25,771 nt of DNA, taken from IMG/VR virus record IMGVR_UViG_3300042934_000108, positions 1 to 25,771 of that record; one strand, given 5' to 3'. Position 1 is the first letter of the stretch. Each line of letters starts with the position of its first letter. Positions 3,383 through 9,816 of the stretch are shown here, piece after piece. Origin of the DNA: a virus. The notes below the pieces were generated by a model, which saw only the letters and a list, made by a program, of their open reading frames with translations, did no database searches and was not told where the DNA came from. Position numbers and translations under genes: made by a program.

Positions 3383-3406
3383 CTGAAACCCCCCCCTTGA
3401 TTTCAG
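3383..3406 (-). promoter_or_regulatory. Hairpin enclosing the G8 ribosome binding site
   Basis: On the minus strand CTGAAA (3406-3401) and TTTCAG (3388-3383) are perfect inverted arms around a 12-base loop holding eight consecutive G. The TGA stop of the sigma-like gene sits in the first arm, and the ATG of the next gene directly follows the second arm. The Shine-Dalgarno tract is therefore in a loop formed between two translationally linked genes. Confidence 0.5.
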
Positions 3407-3921
3407 ATTATCTTGAACCCAGAAGTATCCTCATAATTGCTACGAGCCTTATTCAATATCCGTGAGATGTATGAAGCCGTATGCCCCATCTCGATTGCAG
3501 CTTCAGCCTGGGAGTACCCTTCGAAGAGAAGCATTAACAGCTGTTTCTGTTTTGTGTTCATCCTTGCAAAGGCTGCCTGATCTATCTCCACATATGACAT
3601 ATCTGGTTCCCACTTACCGACCAACTCCCACCCGTTAGGAATTGCATCCAAGCTTTGATAGCGGCGACTGATACGCTGACATCTGCGGAGGTAAACGAAC
3701 ATGTCATTTTGAATACATCTACCGGCATAAGTTGAGAATTTGAACCCCTTCGAAGGATCGAATGTCCGAGCTGCTTTAATGAGCCCGATACTCCCCTCTT
3801 GAAATAGCTCCAGGTAATCTACCCCGGTAGTTTGGCTGATTCTATAGGCATGCGATCCAACCAGCCCCATGTTGTTCAGGATTAATTCATCCGGCGTCTG
3901 CTGCGCTGTTGCTGTGCTCAT
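3403..3921 (-). CDS. Small sigma-70 family RNA polymerase sigma factor
   Basis: 172 residues, about the size of phage or ECF-type sigma factors. Region 2 spans roughly residues 12-80, with the core DYLELFQEGSIGLIKAARTF then DPSKGFKFSTYAGRCIQNDM, which matches the -10-binding, polymerase-binding sigma-70 consensus. A short linker follows (about 81-115). Region 4 covers about 118-162 (KQKQLLMLLFEGYSQAEAAIEMGHTASYISRILNKAR), a helix-turn-helix for the -35 element. No region 1.1 or region 3 is evident. The ATG overlaps the upstream stop as ATGA, with GGGAG nearby. It would redirect host RNA polymerase, plausibly to middle or late phage promoters (inference). A non-canonical sigma-like activator is possible. 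Confidence 0.9.
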   Translation of the reverse strand: MSTATAQQTPDELILNNMGLVGSHAYRISQTTGVDYLELFQEGSIGLIKAARTFDPSKGFKFSTYAGRCIQNDMFVYLRRCQRISRRYQSLDAIPNGWELVGKWEPDMSYVEIDQAAFARMNTKQKQLLMLLFEGYSQAEAAIEMGHTASYISRILNKARSNYEDTSGFKII

Positions 3922-4355
3922 TGGGTTGCTCCCTTCTCCAGATCATCGAAGGCAAAGAAGTTGAACAGGTCCGGGTCATTAATAAGCTTATTTTTGCGGT
4001 CTTTAGCCTTTTGGATAAGTTTTTCTGCTCCATCACGGTTTTTGAGCATGTTGCCAATCTGCTTATCAAGGACCTTAGTGTCGTTGCAACTATCGATTAC
4101 CTGATATACCATTCGGCGCGTTTCGTTTTCTGCTGATTCGTCATATGCTGCAATCAACCGAACTCCATCACCATCCTTAAAGCTGCTGACCAACTGACGC
4201 GCCTTTGCTCGAATCGCATCTCGGCGCATCTTCTCTTCATCCAGGGTTATCCTTTCTTCGAGAAACGCAACAACCTCGTCTATCGTGAATTTTCTGCTCA
4301 TGAATCCGAGAATAAATTCCGTCCGGTCCTCACGGTCCAGATTGCGCTTATCCAT
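3918..4355 (-). CDS. Hypothetical early protein, helical
   Basis: 145 residues, highly charged, with a likely long helix in the N-terminal half (EVVAFLEERITLDEEKMRRDAIRAKARQ, read in parts) and a Lys-rich helix near the end (AEKLIQKAKDRKNKLI). Start ATG lies one base after the upstream stop, and GTGGGG about six bases before it acts as ribosome binding site. Its own stop overlaps the sigma gene start. It is conserved neither in motif nor in fold as far as I can tell. Sitting between the ParB-like and sigma genes, it may be a partner of either (weak inference). Confidence 0.65.
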   Translation of the reverse strand: MDKRNLDREDRTEFILGFMSRKFTIDEVVAFLEERITLDEEKMRRDAIRAKARQLVSSFKDGDGVRLIAAYDESAENETRRMVYQVIDSCNDTKVLDKQIGNMLKNRDGAEKLIQKAKDRKNKLINDPDLFNFFAFDDLEKGATQ

Positions 4356-4356
4356 T

Positions 4357-5310
4357 CTATTTCCCCACCCTTCGAGGTCCTTTTAGTGCCGCCTTCATTT
4401 GATCTTTCAATCTTTGAAGTTCGTCAATTCCGCCTTGAACCTGGCTCATGCAGAGCTCGATTTCGCTCCTGTCTCGCCGCGTCTCCATCCAGTTAGTCAT
4501 TCGTTCTTCTGTAACTGTCCCACGAATCCTCACTGCCGCATCAATTAAATTGTTGATGATTTTCGCGTCCCTATACTGCTCGTCAATTAACTGTTTGCGA
4601 AGTTCGAACTTCTTCTCATCAGCGGTCAATTTATCCAGTCTTTCCTTAGCTAATTCCGGTGGTACTTTCCGAAGTTTCTCCGCCCCGCTAATAGCCAGAT
4701 CAACCGGAACCTTTGCCTCTCCAAGCTGTGGGAAATCATCAACGGCTTTTTGGTACTGTTCTGCCTTTTCAGGGTCCCGGGCTGTGTAAATTGCCTCAAG
4801 TTTGTTTACATGCTCTAACGCCGGGTATTTCTCAACTGCATTCACATGATGTTTCGCAAGATTTAGTGTCTGTTGCGGAACACCGATGAGTTCAGCTACT
4901 TTCTCTTCTGAATCCGGCTTTTTTGGTCTGCCCCCAGCAGGTGATGGGTTTTTACCAAGCGTTGGTGAAAACTCATCTTTGAGCACTGCGCGAGCTGCTT
5001 CAGCCAGTTCCGCAAGATTCTTCGATGCCTCAAACTCTGTCAGCGACTTGCGCTTCGTGTTCTCCTCCAGCTCGATAAGCAGCTTTTCTTTCTCGTTCAG
5101 ATCGGCCATCGTGCGGGTCTCCACCTCTTCACGGCCCAGCAACATGTGAGCCTGCAGACGGCGGTGTCCGGCGATCAAGTTGCCTGCCTCATCGATAATG
5201 ATTGGGTGCAGCAAGCCCCGCGATTGGATACTCTCTGCCAGACCGGCAATGTCACCCATGTCTTCCCGGATGCGGTTGCCGATGTTGATTTTATTGATTG
5301 GTGTAAGCAT
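4357..5310 (-). CDS. ParB/Srx (ParB_N) domain protein
   Basis: 317 residues from the ATG at 5310. The N-terminal ParB/sulfiredoxin-type domain (about 1-85) shows GLLHPI at 32-37 and AGHRRL at 47-52, the hallmark nucleotide-binding box. An HTH-like segment follows around 134-155 (EEKVAELIGVPQQTLNLA), then a long charged helical C-terminus. A GTG 13 codons upstream is rejected because AAAGGAG (5318-5324) is ideally placed for 5310. There is no ParA ATPase beside it, so a DNA-binding, nuclease or transcription-adaptor role is as likely as partition. It is the second gene of the early operon and has its own operator-bearing promoter. Confidence 0.85.
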   Translation of the reverse strand: MLTPINKINIGNRIREDMGDIAGLAESIQSRGLLHPIIIDEAGNLIAGHRRLQAHMLLGREEVETRTMADLNEKEKLLIELEENTKRKSLTEFEASKNLAELAEAARAVLKDEFSPTLGKNPSPAGGRPKKPDSEEKVAELIGVPQQTLNLAKHHVNAVEKYPALEHVNKLEAIYTARDPEKAEQYQKAVDDFPQLGEAKVPVDLAISGAEKLRKVPPELAKERLDKLTADEKKFELRKQLIDEQYRDAKIINNLIDAAVRIRGTVTEERMTNWMETRRDRSEIELCMSQVQGGIDELQRLKDQMKAALKGPRRVGK

Positions 5311-5362
5311 ATAGCTACTCCTTTCTGTTTTTTGGTTTTTTGCATTCACTTTTCAAAGAACA

Positions 5363-5391
5363 TTCATACAACCAAATGTCGTTATAATCAA
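5363..5391 (-). promoter_or_regulatory. Candidate early promoter for the ParB-like gene
   Basis: On the minus strand TTGATT (5391-5386) and TATGAA (5368-5363) are separated by exactly 17 bases, about 52 bases before the ATG at 5310. The spacer is almost entirely filled by an operator-like sequence (5367-5386), as expected for a repressible phage early promoter. Not experimentally defined. Confidence 0.55.
5367..5386. promoter_or_regulatory. Operator-like site O1
   Basis: Plus strand TACAAC-CAAATGTC-GTTATA. The arms match in 5 of 6 positions, and it is 15/17 identical to O2 over AACCAAAyrTCGTTATA. It lies in the spacer of the promoter at 5363-5391. Confidence 0.6.
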
Positions 5392-5612
5392 ACTTGATTA
5401 ACCGACTCAATATCTTCTCTCAACAGCTCCGAAACGTGTATTTCAAATCCAGTAGCTATTTTTTCTAAGACATCAAGTGAAGGACTGTGTTTATTTTCTT
5501 CAAGAGCGGTCAAGTATGAGAACGATAGCCCGCTCTGCTTTGCGAGACGATACCGAGACCACTCACGGCGTTCTCTTAACTGCGTGATGCGACTGCCAAT
5601 TGCCTGCGACAT
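5388..5612 (-). CDS. Xre-family HTH regulator, Cro-like
   Basis: 74 residues from the ATG at 5612, essentially one HTH_3 domain: IGSRITQLRERREWSRYRLAKQSGLSFSYLTALEENKHSPSLDVLEKIATGF. The recognition-helix region is SFSYLTALEE, and a short acidic tail follows. AGGAGG (5620-5625) is placed for this ATG; an in-frame start ten codons earlier is rejected. It is divergent from the 222-aa repressor and first in the early operon, the classic Cro position. Its gene is flanked on both sides by copies of the same operator, so autoregulation is likely. Which of the two Xre proteins binds which site is not shown by sequence. Confidence 0.88.
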   Translation of the reverse strand: MSQAIGSRITQLRERREWSRYRLAKQSGLSFSYLTALEENKHSPSLDVLEKIATGFEIHVSELLREDIESVNQV

Positions 5613-5632
5613 GTGCTCACCTCCTGAAATCA

Positions 5633-5654
5633 ATATAACCAAACATCGTTATAT
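5633..5654. promoter_or_regulatory. Operator-like site O2
   Basis: ATATAAC-CAAACATC-GTTATAT, perfect 7-bp inverted arms around eight bases. It covers the -10 of the Cro-like gene's promoter. Best copy of the motif in the window. Confidence 0.7.
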
Positions 5655-5806: not shown

Positions 5807-6475
5807 ATGGACACGATTGTTAAAATAGAGGAACTGATGAATGAGAAGGGTTGGACAAAGTACCGCCTGGCTAAGGAGTCCGGCTTGCCTCAGACAACTA
5901 TTACTTCTTTATTCAGCGGACGAGTAAAGTCTCCATCCACTGAAACGTTATCTAAAATAGCTGCTGCGTTGGGGGTGAACTCTTCTGTTATTTTAGGAGA
6001 AGAAGTTCCGATGTTTGAAATAAGTGCGGAGAAAAAGAATGAGCTGAGAACCAAATTACACGATGACCTCGTGGAGGCCTTGGACTTATTCGCCAGTCCG
6101 ATTCCCGAACAGTACAAGCAGGCTTTGGTTGATATAAAAGAGAAATATGTTGAGATTATTGGGGAAAACGCGGTTTTGGGGCATAGTTCGCTTTTGAGTG
6201 CTTATGAGGAGATTCAGTCCATCGAGGTAACTTCTACAAGATTCAGCACATTCCACGCTATGTTGACCGAACTAATTGATTTAAAATCAAACATAATAAA
6301 AAACCCCCCTGCGCCAGGATCAGCAGCAAGAGAGTTTTCGGAAAAGATAGAACTATCAGACGAAGAGTTATTAGAGCAATTCAGCATTTCAATTGATGGA
6401 GTGGCCCTTTCACAAAAGGACATTCAGAAGATAATCGCTCAGGTCCGCATAGATCGGATGTTTGATGGTCAGTAA
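5807..6475 (+). CDS. Xre-family phage repressor, CI-like
   Basis: 222 residues. The N-terminal HTH_3 domain (about 3-62) includes LMNEKGWTKYRLAKESGLPQ and the recognition stretch TTITSLFSGR, then a helical linker. The C-terminal segment (LSDEELLEQFSISIDG and KDIQKIIAQVRIDR) resembles a small domain found on Firmicutes phage regulators. No S24/LexA-type Ser-Lys autoprotease region is present, and no ImmA-like metalloprotease is next door, so the inducing signal is unclear. AAGGAG at 5795-5800 and a strong promoter precede it. It is transcribed away from the early operon, the expected lysogenic-repressor position. Assignment as the master repressor is from context and size. Confidence 0.85.
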   Translation: MDTIVKIEELMNEKGWTKYRLAKESGLPQTTITSLFSGRVKSPSTETLSKIAAALGVNSSVILGEEVPMFEISAEKKNELRTKLHDDLVEALDLFASPIPEQYKQALVDIKEKYVEIIGENAVLGHSSLLSAYEEIQSIEVTSTRFSTFHAMLTELIDLKSNIIKNPPAPGSAAREFSEKIELSDEELLEQFSISIDGVALSQKDIQKIIAQVRIDRMFDGQ

Positions 6476-6673
6476 GAATCTCTAAATAATGGCTGAGAGG
6501 CCTGTTCATGATAATAGCAAGTTCGGCAAGTTCAAGCTCTTTCTTTTGGATAAGACATCGCCCCCAAGTAGTATAATTGTAAGCCGCGATAAGTAAGACG
6601 AGCATATCATAAATACGAACACAATACGAACACTTTTGACATAGATATTTCAAAAAAACGAAAGGAGCCTCCC
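6476..6673 (+). other. Intergenic region between the two plus-strand Xre genes
   Basis: 198 bases, A/T-rich. It holds TATAAT at 6572-6577 without a convincing -35 at the right spacing, a perfect 11-bp tandem repeat (6612-6633), and TTGACA at 6636-6641 without a matching -10. An apparent minus-strand frame (6381-6653) begins with TTG, has no ribosome binding site and overlaps the repressor gene, so it is not called. Confidence 0.5.
6612..6633. repeat. Perfect 11-bp tandem repeat (AATACGAACAC x2)
   Basis: Two exact copies with no gap, 40 bases upstream of the second plus-strand Xre gene. CGAAC is also the half-site of the Gram-positive LexA box, but here the halves are direct rather than inverted. 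A binding site for the adjacent Xre protein is the more likely reading (inference). Confidence 0.6.
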
Positions 6674-6901
6674 ATGGGTTTCAAACTCGGGGATTGTCTC
6701 CTGCAGGAACGACTTGACGAAAAGGGATGGACGCAAGCGTATTTCGGAAGAAGAATGAATGTATCGCGCCAATATATAAACAAACTCATTAGTGGCGAGA
6801 ACAAGATGTCATTCGAATTCGCTTTAAACGCTGCTCATATCCTTGGGTGTCGCACCACTGATCTTTACATCCTCGAAGTCGTTCGAGACAGGAGCGAGTA
6901 G
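6674..6901 (+). CDS. Second short Xre-family HTH protein
   Basis: 75 residues: one HTH_3 domain of the HigA/plasmid-antitoxin type, with LQERLDEKGWTQAYFGRRMN, then SRQYINKLISGE and EFALNAAHILG. AAAGGAG is well placed before the ATG. It is co-directional with the repressor but 198 bases away, with its own upstream repeat. No toxin-like gene is next to it, so I read it as an auxiliary phage regulator rather than an antitoxin. The WTQAYFGRRM.VSRQYIN pattern is typical of antitoxin-like Xre proteins, so that alternative stays open. Confidence 0.82.
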   Translation: MGFKLGDCLLQERLDEKGWTQAYFGRRMNVSRQYINKLISGENKMSFEFALNAAHILGCRTTDLYILEVVRDRSE

Positions 6902-6912
6902 ATTTTCTACTC
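6896..6912 (+). terminator. Hairpin at the end of the second Xre gene
   Basis: GAGTAGA-TTT-TCTACTC, a perfect 7-bp stem that includes the TAG stop. No T-run follows immediately (TATTTTG comes about eight bases later), so termination is possible but weak; mRNA 3'-end protection is an alternative. Confidence 0.4.
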
Positions 6913-6990
6913 TCCCACGAGTATTTTGTCACCCTATAAGGTTACACAATTGTTCGCTTGAATCCATCATACTCCTTTGTCCAACTATTG

Positions 6991-7010
6991 GGTGTCGCTC
7001 GGTGTCGCAA
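6991..7010. repeat. Short tandem repeat GGTGTCGC x2
   Basis: GGTGTCGC at 6991-6998 and 7001-7008, a 10-bp period equal to one helical turn. A third copy is inside the second Xre gene near 6846. It may be a binding site or chance. Confidence 0.35.
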
Positions 7011-7032
7011 AATATTAACCGAATATGGACAT

Positions 7033-7356
7033 TCAACGGTCTACATCTTCCATCTTCTCGATATTCCGCCTCGATACTTTAATACTCTTCCCTTTTCTCA
7101 GTTTGTCGAAATATGCCCTATTCTTAATTTCGTCAAAACTTTTAACCCGATTAATATTCGCAAGGTTCGATTTATCCAGATATTCAAACCCCTCCGGAAG
7201 TAGGATCTCAGCAAAGTCTTTCAGCGAATATGCGGGTTTGTATGTCTCACTCGCGGTGTGGATGGTTGTGGAGCCGTCCGCTTGTACGAACAGCACCTTA
7301 GCTGAATCGATCACTCCCGCTTTGCCTGTAGCTACGTTTACCACAGGAATGTCCAT
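7033..7356 (-). CDS. Stand-alone LytTR-type DNA-binding protein
   Basis: 107 residues from ATG 7356, chosen because GAGGTGAT is ideally placed; an in-frame TTG at 7395 is rejected. Nearly the whole protein fits the LytTR (AgrA/LytR/VirR) beta-rich DNA-binding fold: AKVLFVQADGSTTIHTASETYK, then SLKDFAEILLPEGFEYLDKSNLANINRVKSF, where family members have 'hrSylVNl.kI', and near the C-terminus KGKSIKVSRRNIEKM, matching 'ipvSRry'. There is no receiver or membrane domain. It sits alone downstream of the late terminator and before the control region. It is probably a transcription regulator of phage or host genes; target and signal unknown. Family call is from pattern, without a profile search. Confidence 0.75.
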   Translation of the reverse strand: MDIPVVNVATGKAGVIDSAKVLFVQADGSTTIHTASETYKPAYSLKDFAEILLPEGFEYLDKSNLANINRVKSFDEIKNRAYFDKLRKGKSIKVSRRNIEKMEDVDR

Positions 7357-7415
7357 AGATATCACCTCAGCCATAGGTTGCCGCGATATTGCCAATTTTA
7401 TGTAATAGAGAACAC

Positions 7416-7457
7416 AAAAAAGCCCCCACCAACCAGTTAAGGTCGATGAGGGCTTTT
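7416..7457 (-). terminator. Late operon terminator
   Basis: Minus strand AAAAGCCCTCA ... TGGGGGCTTTTTT: an 11-bp stem with one G-T wobble, followed by a T-run. It lies after the holin gene and ends the late transcript. The stem is also flanked by a four-T run on the other strand, so weak bidirectional action is possible. Confidence 0.85.
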
Positions 7458-7459
7458 GC

Positions 7460-7490
7460 CGGTGCTTCCGGACAATACTCGGTGCTTCCG
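7460..7490. repeat. 11-bp direct repeat, 20-bp period
   Basis: CGGTGCTTCCG at 7460-7470 and again at 7480-7490, identical, separated by nine bases. The period is about two helical turns, close to the 21-22 bp spacing of direct repeats bound by LytTR proteins. It lies about 105-135 bases upstream of the LytTR-like gene. Confidence 0.6.
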
Positions 7491-7531
7491 ATGTAAAACC
7501 AGATTAGCATGATTGGGTAATCTTGTAAATA

Positions 7532-7810
7532 CTATTCTTTTGTAGAACCGTCACGTTTATTAAACGCCAGTTCGAACAGCCCGGTCGCCGATAGCCCCGC
7601 AAGCCCCCCGGACCATAGCCGCAGCGTGATGTCCAGCTCAGTAAATGGAGACGCCAGCGCACCCACCACCAGACCCACTACAAGCCCCACCAAGGGCAGC
7701 AAGTTCTTCGGTACATTAACGCTCGTCTTGATGAGTTGAACCAGCGCCAGTACGAACACAGCCAGCACAGAGGCGAAGGCAAGCACTTCTGTTAGATTTT
7801 GATTGTCCAT
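7532..7810 (-). CDS. A118-like holin
   Basis: 92 residues with hydrophobic segments at about 8-27, 37-55 and a weaker one at 64-84. The pattern VQLIKTSVNVPKNLLPLVGLVVG then LRLWSGGLAGLSATGLFEL matches, as I recall it, the layout of the Listeria phage A118 holin (Hol118). A charged C-terminus (NKRDGSTKE) is typical. It would form membrane lesions that let the endolysin upstream in the operon reach the wall. AAGGGG lies 11-12 bases before the ATG. It is the last gene before the late terminator, and its ATG follows the endolysin stop by two bases. Confidence 0.85.
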   Translation of the reverse strand: MDNQNLTEVLAFASVLAVFVLALVQLIKTSVNVPKNLLPLVGLVVGLVVGALASPFTELDITLRLWSGGLAGLSATGLFELAFNKRDGSTKE

Positions 7811-7812
7811 GA

Positions 7813-8709
7813 TTAAACATCCCCTTTCTGCGTTGCGGCCAGCCCGAGACGGTGCAGGATTGTGATCAGCCGCGCCTCAGTGTATGTGGCCTTCTCTGGC
7901 GTGTCGATTACAGGTTTGCCATTAAGTACAGATGGCGTGTTCGCAAACGCCGCCAGCGCGCTCTTGGCCCACTCAGGCGGGGCGGTATCGGTCAACTCTA
8001 CCAGCAATGCACTGAGCTCTTTGATCTCCGCAGCCTGCTTCAGCGTCTGCTCCTTGAGTACGTCCCTGCTCGTTGCCAGATCCTTAACCGCGACCTCCAG
8101 AGCATCAATTCGTTTCTTATCCTCTACCGACAATTCGTCCGCCTCCTTCATGTATCGTTCAATGTTTGCCAGAGCTTTTGCCATGGCGGTTTCTGTGGGC
8201 TTCTGGCCTGCCTGCAGCTGCTTGATACTCAGACCAAAGGTCATCTGAAGGTGGGGTAGATCCTTAAAACTGGTCCAGTCCCCGCCCCACTCAAAGCCCA
8301 GCTTATTCGCCTCGTCAACAACTTCCATCCAATCTGCAATATTATCCTCGTCCCCATCCCGGGTGGTGTCCCAGGATACGCTTGAGCCGTTTGGCAGCAG
8401 AAGCGCAAAGTCTACCGCCACCCCGTAATTATGATAGCTGGTGCCGCCCTTGGCATTGGTCACCTTCGGCTTATCCGGCTGCGCCTTCACATTCGGCAAC
8501 CCTGCCGCGTTAAGCTCTGCCTGTGTTCTGCCTTGGGCAAATAGGCCGTTCTGCTCCGCCGTGGTCCGCAGCCCTTGAGTGATCACTATAAATACACCCC
8601 GGGCATAGCAGCGCTCGATCAGCGCCACCGTAGCCGTCAATAATACCGGATGCAACCCGCTCAGCCGAGCGGATGATTTTGCTTTTACTTGATCCAGCGT
8701 CAAAGACAT
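7813..8709 (-). CDS. Endolysin, M15-type L-alanyl-D-glutamate peptidase-like
   Basis: 298 residues from ATG 8709 (a GTG one codon earlier is possible). Residues 1-160 form an M15/VanY-CwlK-like zinc peptidase: ITQGLRTTAEQNGLFAQGRT, SYHNYGVAVDF with ligands H93 and D100, and FKDLPHLQ with H153 as third ligand and D150 as likely base. This is the family of Ply500-like endolysins that cut the L-Ala-D-Glu bond of the stem peptide. Residues about 190-240 are coiled coil. Residues about 240-298 (EWAKSALAAFANTPSVLNG, then ATYTEARLITILHRLGL) look like an SLH-type wall-binding module. There is no signal peptide, in line with holin-dependent release. Confidence 0.9.
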   Translation of the reverse strand: MSLTLDQVKAKSSARLSGLHPVLLTATVALIERCYARGVFIVITQGLRTTAEQNGLFAQGRTQAELNAAGLPNVKAQPDKPKVTNAKGGTSYHNYGVAVDFALLLPNGSSVSWDTTRDGDEDNIADWMEVVDEANKLGFEWGGDWTSFKDLPHLQMTFGLSIKQLQAGQKPTETAMAKALANIERYMKEADELSVEDKKRIDALEVAVKDLATSRDVLKEQTLKQAAEIKELSALLVELTDTAPPEWAKSALAAFANTPSVLNGKPVIDTPEKATYTEARLITILHRLGLAATQKGDV

Positions 8710-9002
8710 CACGCATCACTCCTTTGCTTATGGATTTCACTGATCCGGAGGTGCGCCTGCTTGGCTGACTCCTCAACCCGCGTGACGCGCTCAGACAGAA
8801 CATCGAACCTTTGCCCTTGCGCCCGCTGTTCCAGCCTCATATCGTCTACGCCACGTTTGATATATTCCACGTCCGTCCGGAGTGCGGCGCCGCTGCCTGC
8901 CTCCCGGGCTACCTCCTGCCTGACTACTGTTGCCCGGCCGATCCACCCGAGTATCAGCCCACTTGCTGCCGTTAATATTGCTGTGATTGTGGTAATCTCC
9001 AC
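8709..9002 (-). CDS. Membrane-anchored coiled-coil protein, XhlA-like position
   Basis: 97 residues starting at GTG 9002, with GGGGGAG six bases upstream. One N-terminal membrane segment (about 5-22, ITAILTAASGLILGWIG) is followed by a cytoplasmic-type coiled coil (RTDVEYIKRGVDDMRLEQ and LSERVTRVEESAKQAHLRI). This is the layout of XhlA-like and other small holin-partner proteins in Firmicutes phages. Its stop overlaps the endolysin start. It is probably a lysis accessory protein that helps the holin; an antiholin role is also possible. Confidence 0.7.
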   Translation of the reverse strand: MEITTITAILTAASGLILGWIGRATVVRQEVAREAGSGAALRTDVEYIKRGVDDMRLEQRAQGQRFDVLSERVTRVEESAKQAHLRISEIHKQRSDA

Positions 9003-9029
9003 CTATGCTCCCCCTCAAGATAAAAAAGA

Positions 9030-9224
9030 TTAATTTGCCTCTTGCCCCTCGCAAGGAGTGTCCGCTGCGAGCTCCTTCAGTCTTTCATTGACCGCCGCCC
9101 GGACGCCTTGCAAGTATTGGGCCTCGTTACCCGGATGAAACGCAGCCACGGCAGATATGACGGCACATACCTCTTTGACTGTTGGGGATATCACAATCTC
9201 CAGCTTGTTTTGAATAATTGCCAT
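9030..9224 (-). CDS. Small hypothetical protein at start of lysis module
   Basis: 64 residues from ATG 9224. A longer reading to 9317 would translate the terminator hairpin at 9246-9273 and is rejected. The sequence is soluble-looking: a beta-like start (MAIIQNKLEIVISPTVKEV), then helices ending with LKELAADTPCEGQEAN. AAAGGTTGATC precedes the ATG. No family recognised. It is the first gene after a terminator, ahead of the XhlA-like, endolysin and holin genes, so it may belong to the lysis unit. Confidence 0.6.
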   Translation of the reverse strand: MAIIQNKLEIVISPTVKEVCAVISAVAAFHPGNEAQYLQGVRAAVNERLKELAADTPCEGQEAN

Positions 9225-9245
9225 GTGGATCAACCTTTCCACAAC

Positions 9246-9273
9246 AAAAAGAGCCCCGCCGATGGCGAGACCC
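9246..9273 (-). terminator. Intrinsic terminator before the lysis genes
   Basis: Minus strand GGGTCTCGCC-ATC-GGCGGGGCTC, ten paired positions including three G-T wobbles, followed directly by TTTTT. It lies between the stalk-domain gene and the lysis module. Confidence 0.8.
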
Positions 9274-9288
9274 TGGATGCTGGATATG

Positions 9289-9816
9289 TTATTTTTGGAG
9301 TTCTGCGATTTGAGCATTCAGTTCAGTGAGCTGCTGTTTGAGTGTAGCGAGTTCACTTTCCCATGTATCAACTTGCTTTTTGAATGCAGCATAATCTTCA
9401 GCCGCGCGTTGTCCCAAACTGCCGTTGCCAGCGAGCTCTTCGGCCAGCGATTCATAAGTTGGAAGAATGTTGTCTTTGTACCCTTTGATCTGTTTTTCGT
9501 GAGTAGCTATTTGTTCGACCAACGTTTCTCGCTTAGCATTTAGTTCCACCAACGGATCAATAACATTTGCGTTGTTCGTCATGATTATCTTCTTCCCTTC
9601 CACCTGCAATGTTACCCCGGCAGCTTCCGCCACGGACCGCACAGGAGCATAGGCCGATCCGTCAATAATGACCGCATCCGCAACCTTGGCTCCATTCTTT
9701 TCCACGCTAAAAAGCCCCTGAACCTTCTGTCCAATTAGACTGGATGAGTCTGCGAATGCGGACGCTCCGGCAAACAGCAACACTCCGACAATTAAGCCAG
9801 ACACAAACTTTTTCAT
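9289..9816 (-). CDS. Secreted stalk-domain / copper amine oxidase N-like protein
   Basis: 175 residues. A Sec signal peptide (about 1-22; MKKFVSGLIVGVLLFAGASAFA) leads into a copper amine oxidase N-terminal-like (stalk) domain at about 30-80, with VADAVIIDGSAYAPVRSVAEAAGV and LQVEGKKIIMTN. A coiled coil (about 90-175) ends in QQLTELNAQIAELQK. Such domains are common on secreted Paenibacillus and clostridial proteins and usually mediate protein or surface contacts, not catalysis. GGGGG precedes the ATG and a TATAAT lies about 32 bases upstream. A secreted protein between tail and lysis genes is unusual; it could be a lysogenic-conversion cargo gene or a wall-associated lysis aid. Confidence 0.8.
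   Translation of the reverse strand: MKKFVSGLIVGVLLFAGASAFADSSSLIGQKVQGLFSVEKNGAKVADAVIIDGSAYAPVRSVAEAAGVTLQVEGKKIIMTNNANVIDPLVELNAKRETLVEQIATHEKQIKGYKDNILPTYESLAEELAGNGSLGQRAAEDYAAFKKQVDTWESELATLKQQLTELNAQIAELQK

Follow-up and report, generated by a model that had tools for sequence, protein, structure and literature searches.

Agr-type signalling genes and LytTR regulators have both been noted in phages before (PMC3901668). In the part of that article available to us, Hargreaves et al. (2014) describe AgrB, AgrD and AgrC-like proteins in Brevibacillus phages Davies, Emery and Abouo, with no mention of a response regulator or LytTR for these three, and note LytTR genes in Pseudomonas phages D3, PMG1 and Lu11; the agr3 locus of Clostridioides difficile phage phiCDHM1 also places Agr-type signalling genes on a phage (PMC3901668). 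In bacteria, the HdrRM and BrsRM pairs of Streptococcus mutans belong to the LytTR regulatory systems (LRS), in which regulators are held by membrane partners; the membrane inhibitor is found by the regulator and autoregulatory direct repeats lie near the −35 (PMC6193735). Here we analyzed a small LytTR gene in a 25,771-base virus record (IMGVR_UViG_3300042934_000108), a fragment referred to below as the window, meaning the whole stretch of DNA analyzed. The gene encodes 107 amino acids (aa) and stands, as a preliminary description had it, between the late terminator and the lysogeny control genes. Judging by its capsid protein, which shares 75% identity with one from a Paenibacillus whitsoniae contig, the phage is Paenibacillus-like. 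We found that the same place in related prophages holds either a LytTR gene alone or a whole Agr-type operon, and we consider it most likely, with moderate confidence, that the window protein regulates the lysogeny/integration region as an Agr-type regulator without a sensor of its own.

The preliminary description of a stand-alone LytTR protein was borne out by profile and structure searches. The protein matches Pfam LytTR (PF04397) and no other domain, with an E-value of 4.6e-12 (46.4 bits against a cut-off of 22.6), and the receiver (REC) domain that precedes LytTR in the response regulators AgrA, VirR and ComE is absent. The AlphaFold model of residues 1–107 has a mean predicted local distance difference test (pLDDT) score of 95.9, and its top Foldseek matches in the PDB are all LytTR domains (prob 0.99–1.00). 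AgrA of Staphylococcus aureus (4g4k) comes first (E 9e-4, prob 1.00), with ComE and a Bacillus LytTR also near the top. Whole-chain superposition on AgrA was only moderate (template modelling (TM) score about 0.47, root-mean-square deviation 11), so that the domain's halves may differ in their relative placement. The fold class is nevertheless that of the AgrA LytTR domain (PDB 4g4k, 3bs1), with which a profile search aligned the window's LytTR family at an E-value of 1.6e-8. The top viral fold match is the LytTR protein gp48 of phage Davies, with a TM score of 0.79.

The hallmark LytTR motif is FhRhHRS, and several of its residues contact DNA in AgrA (PMC4227749). Where S. aureus AgrA has FFRCHNS, the window protein has FEYLDKS. 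The hallmark His is lost in 82 of 83 proteins of the subfamily, mostly replaced by Asp, which is nearly universal at this position in the Agr-linked members. On its sequence, the window protein is thus a member of a divergent, not canonical, LytTR subfamily of Paenibacillales. Since the motif change is subfamily-wide, DNA specificity cannot be borrowed from AgrA and an AgrA-like site cannot be assumed.

To place the gene among its relatives, a profile search was run on 395 genomes of Paenibacillales and gene context was examined at 78 loci. Most small LytTRs of the subfamily adjoin AgrB and a sensor-like membrane protein without a kinase. In a second setting the LytTR gene stands alone in prophage lysogeny regions, as an orphan, and six such orphans lie near a serine integrase (L043, L054, L056, L129, L156 and L159). 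Two others, L115 and L119, are arranged as in the window, with the same neighbours in the same orientation; the L119 prophage has a CI-type repressor with an S24 peptidase. Their LytTR proteins are 58–59% identical to that of the window, and nonsynonymous divergence (dN) is 0.27–0.34 against a synonymous divergence (dS) of 2.0 or saturated, indicating purifying selection. All three orthologues have an intact open reading frame (ORF) with a good ribosome site, where GAGGTGAT is kept in L115 and L119. With the window counted, the LytTR gene is convergent with a helix-turn-helix (HTH) gene in eight of nine prophage orphans, the exception being L056, where both run in one direction, and six of the nine adjoin an integrase. 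In the window the convergent partner is a 75-aa Cro-type gene (HTH75), and this pair recurs in L115, L119, L043, L054, L129, L156 and L139. Further LytTR orphans form a separate, apparently chromosomal group. The window protein itself was not found by direct look-ups among cultured phages, in viral contigs or in species genomes, and plasmid matches were distant LytTRs.

Complete Agr-type operons were found in the same slot. Prophages L055, L139 and L142 carry an AgrC-like sensor, AgrB, a small AgrD-like ORF and a LytTR gene beside the integrase, and the L139 LytTR gene is convergent with a member of the 75-aa HTH family that the window gene belongs to. The L139 prophage lies by a groEL-like gene and has a tyrosine integrase, with the AgrC-like/AgrB/AgrD-like/LytTR operon and the Cro-type gene at 8021–9689; it would be well suited to a test of whether Agr controls lysogeny. 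Cultured phage Davies likewise has an integrase, two membrane proteins, AgrB, a 39-aa ORF and a LytTR gene in one place. Its gp48 falls below the Pfam cut-off alone, is named LytTR-type in a viral structure library and matches the window protein by fold. The window resembles Davies in having a LytTR gene of the same subfamily beside lysogeny genes, as tree and context indicate, but differs in having LytTR only, with no AgrC or AgrB gene seen, no AgrD or other peptide gene found and no membrane protein of the same operon adjoining it, where the set beside the Davies integrase also includes AgrB, an AgrD-like ORF and two sensor-like membrane proteins. Beyond prophages, operons of a kinase-less AgrC-like membrane protein, AgrB, an AgrD-like peptide and a stand-alone LytTR are widespread in Paenibacillales (L045, L046, L057, L108, L110, L121 and others), and no description of them was found in the open-access literature searched.

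A tree of 83 LytTRs agrees with these settings, and its deeper order is tentative because only 122 columns were available. A starred group unites the window with L119 and L115, and six prophage orphans cluster together (support 87). These six are joined (86) by six agr-linked LytTRs, among them L055, L139 and L142, which form a starred group (99) of their own; L054, L129 and L056 belong to neither of the two groups. The population-signalling link raised in the preliminary description is therefore upheld to the extent that the window protein is closest to regulators of operons containing AgrB, some of which are in prophages.

Other described systems are less close. Phage PMG1 has an integrase, CI and a small LytTR gene of about 111 codons, but this lies in an early recombination operon by exonuclease genes, is not convergent with a Cro-type gene, and has no AgrB annotated with it. 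HdrRM and BrsRM share a LytTR regulator without a paired kinase, and the related operons found here have a kinase-less membrane protein, whereas the window gene has no adjacent membrane inhibitor. The phiCDHM1 locus differs in that the window has the regulator and no signalling genes. Within the open-access literature searched, what appears to be new is that one conserved lysogeny slot occurs in sensorless and complete versions, that the motif has changed and that the repeat is separate from the regulator (below).

These comparisons suggest how the gene could work. It occupies the border of the prophage lysogeny module, with the repressor/Cro genes on one hand and the integrase or lysis side on the other, in a slot whose content varies; in sister prophages this slot holds a complete peptide-signalling operon (kinase-less AgrC-like sensor, AgrB, AgrD-like peptide and LytTR). 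Location, fold, kinship and conservation are thus shown. DNA binding by the LytTR domain, with altered base contacts, is most likely, and from its recurring position we infer that the targets may be promoters of the repressor, the Cro-type gene or the integrase. It would either listen to host AgrC/AgrB systems of the same subfamily or act constitutively. A bolder extension, which we regard as conjecture, is that a lysogeny switch derived from Agr occupies a conserved slot across Paenibacillus prophages, some of which would have the whole system for arbitrium-like phage-to-phage signalling and others, like that of the window, the regulator only, eavesdropping on Agr peptides of the host or a neighbouring prophage through sensors encoded elsewhere. 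Individual findings of phage-borne agr and LytTR genes are now tied to one recurring lysogeny-region place in Paenibacillus-type prophages, and because this slot occurs with and without signalling genes, control of lysogeny by Agr peptides becomes concretely testable.

Several observations weigh against a role in lysogeny. LytTR domains bind DNA, and their sites are 9-bp direct repeats spaced 11–13 bp. In the three phages with orthologues, the intergenic regions of the lysogeny module held no 9-bp direct repeats at a period of 20–23, hairpins of the candidate small RNA aside, and shared direct repeats upstream of chromosomal agr operons showed no clear excess (16 against 11 expected). The missing operator is the main gap in this interpretation. 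In addition, no integrase is found in the window, a 25.8-kb fragment; tree supports above the trio of orthologues are moderate; and the LytTR gene is absent from nine virus records related by capsid or endolysin, which makes it accessory. The HTH75 gene is often present without LytTR, and we rejected it as an obligatory partner. In favour of an association, a search centred on HTH75, from which a distinct chromosomal group and the loci behind the query were left out, found LytTR within about 1 kb at 4 of 16 further loci, so that the content of the slot is variable, with LytTR frequent. Lastly, the protein may act on host genes.

This last point is the core of a possible, if rather unlikely, alternative in which the gene is a lysogenic-conversion (moron) regulator that acts on host promoters, competing with or mimicking chromosomal LytTRs of AgrC-AgrB operons, with no role in phage decisions. 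An accessory slot of variable content, the absence of the gene from phages with related capsids and endolysins, and the many LytTRs of the same subfamily in host genomes would all fit. However, the gene recurs by integrase and repressor, convergent with an HTH gene, rather than scattered over cargo sites, and the slot is common to prophage agr operons. We think it improbable that the protein is a decaying, functionless remnant of an agr operon. The lack of agr genes beside it and the loss of the DNA-contact motif FhRhHRS could be taken that way, but the intact ORF and good ribosome site in all three orthologues, together with strong purifying selection, speak for a working gene, and the altered motif is not decay because it is common to the whole subfamily, including intact agr operons.

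A regulatory site was first proposed in an identical 11-bp repeat with a 20-bp period said to lie just upstream of the gene. The repeat is exact and real: copies of CGGTGCTTCCG occupy 7460–7470 and 7480–7490, and because exact repeats of at least 11 bp at a period of 18–23 are expected 0.03 times per simulated window, it is not a chance occurrence. Its position is not directly upstream of the gene, as it lies between the holin stop and the terminator, 104–134 bp from the LytTR start codon and on the far side of the terminator. Autoregulation through this repeat is very unlikely. Its distance from the gene and its period of 20 (9-bp repeats with an 11-bp spacer), which is within the LRS range (PMC6193735), would suit such a site, but LRS repeats lie just upstream of the −35, whereas the only such repeat here belongs to the candidate small RNA unit and the terminator separates it from the gene. 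The same element occurs in L010, L179, L168 and many genomes away from any LytTR, at the same site in sister phages that have no LytTR, and in one or two copies; it is absent upstream of the LytTR orthologues in L115 (where it lies about 1.6 kb off) and L119. The closing pairs also co-vary between G-C and A-U, as in RNA hairpins.

The simplest reading of the repeat, based on sequence and predicted folding, is therefore the doubled 5′ hairpin of a candidate untranslated small RNA of about 60–80 nt at the end of the lysis cassette (Table 1). The terminator directly follows the two hairpins on the transcribed strand, and the hairpin-terminator stretch folds 6.3 standard deviations below shuffles, with much of that coming from the terminator. 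The promoter-like match of the window (8/12 bases) is alone no better than shuffles; its counterpart in L010 is TTTACA-17-TATACT. Among 29 distinct examples of the candidate family, 19 have a promoter-like pair of at least 9/12 bases at a spacing of 16–18, compared with 10.6% of shuffles, and in most promoter-bearing examples the −10 element ends 8–14 bases before the first hairpin. The closing pair of the hairpins alternates between G-C and A-U across the examples. The doubled element follows the lysis genes in L010 too and is present in L115, while L179 and L168 have single copies.

Table 1. Features of the window around the LytTR gene and the candidate small RNA unit
Feature	Position	Strand	Remark
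Divergent Cro-type HTH gene	5388..5642	-	start of early genes
HTH repressor of lysogeny module	5807..6475	+	precedes 75-aa Cro-type gene
75-aa Cro-type HTH gene (HTH75)	6674..6901	+	convergent with LytTR gene
Inverted repeat GAGTAGATTTTCTACTC	6896-6912		conserved element of convergent gap
Convergent gap between HTH75 and LytTR genes	6902..7032		conserved elements, partly common to L115 and L119
Conserved element TGTCGCTCGGTGTCGCA	6993-7009		in convergent gap
LytTR regulator gene, 107 aa	7033..7356	-	ATG at 7356, stop ending at 7033
Shine-Dalgarno GAGGTG of LytTR gene	7363..7368	-	read 7368-7363
Intrinsic terminator	7418..7457	-	3′ end of candidate small RNA and of late operon
Hairpin 2 of candidate small RNA, CCGG-AAGCA-CCGG	7459..7471	-	repeat copy 7460-7470
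Hairpin 1 of candidate small RNA, UCGG-AAGCA-CCGA	7479..7491	-	repeat copy 7480-7490
Promoter-like TTTACA-17-TAATCT of candidate small RNA unit	7501..7529	-	
Holin gene, Hol118-type	7532..7810	-	final gene of lysis cassette

Searching for the repeat elsewhere, as had been suggested, did find it in phages and many genomes, in places away from LytTR. Sites of the 13-mer alone were mostly in coding sequence, and a terminator-like tail was seen at only 14 of 70, so a covariance model was used to redraw the family. This model matched in 74 of 103 genomes at E-values up to 0.01; these E-values are approximate, and ordinary terminators may account for the weaker matches. Rfam (4227 families) gave no match for the element up to an E-value of 1, and none up to 0.1 for nine element-bearing loci. 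The exact tandem repeats of viral contigs had mostly an 18-bp period, were likely coding, and were set aside. The candidate unit as a whole (promoter-like sequence, one or two hairpins CCGRAAGNAYCGG and intrinsic terminator) spans 7416–7529 on the minus strand of the window and is also found in L010, L115, L168, L179 and L313–L342; it is frequent in Paenibacillaceae genomes and present in some phages. The repeat has thus led to a two-hairpin small RNA candidate without an Rfam match that these bacteria often carry, as do several of their phages in the lysis region.

The late minus-strand genes of the window end with an M15-peptidase endolysin, the Hol118-type holin and the strong terminator, and the LytTR gene follows. 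That LytTR times late-gene expression or lysis, as also proposed at first, is most improbable and nothing supports it, for although the gene is the first past the lysis cassette and in the same direction, the strong terminator intervenes and in L115, L119, L043, L054, L129, L156 and L159 the gene is not by lysis genes.

Beyond the elements listed in Table 1, the convergent gap holds the conserved element GTCACCCTATAAGGTTAC, the element TGTCGCTCNNTGTCGCA common to the window and L119, and GTCACC-CTATAA-GGTTAC, the stem of which differs in L119. Upstream of the 75-aa HTH gene, about 50 bp within 6590–6660 are nearly identical to L115 and include a tandem AATACGAACAC with a period of 11. A minus-strand ORF at 6381–6653 has the peptide VRIYDMLVLLIAA, which also occurs in an L115 ORF, and the 6590–6660 element may represent an operator or encode a short hydrophobic peptide. 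Further along, the early leftward operon encodes a ParB-like protein and a sigma-70-type factor (3403–5349), and an ORF related to the ParB-like one is found near LytTR in L119 as well.
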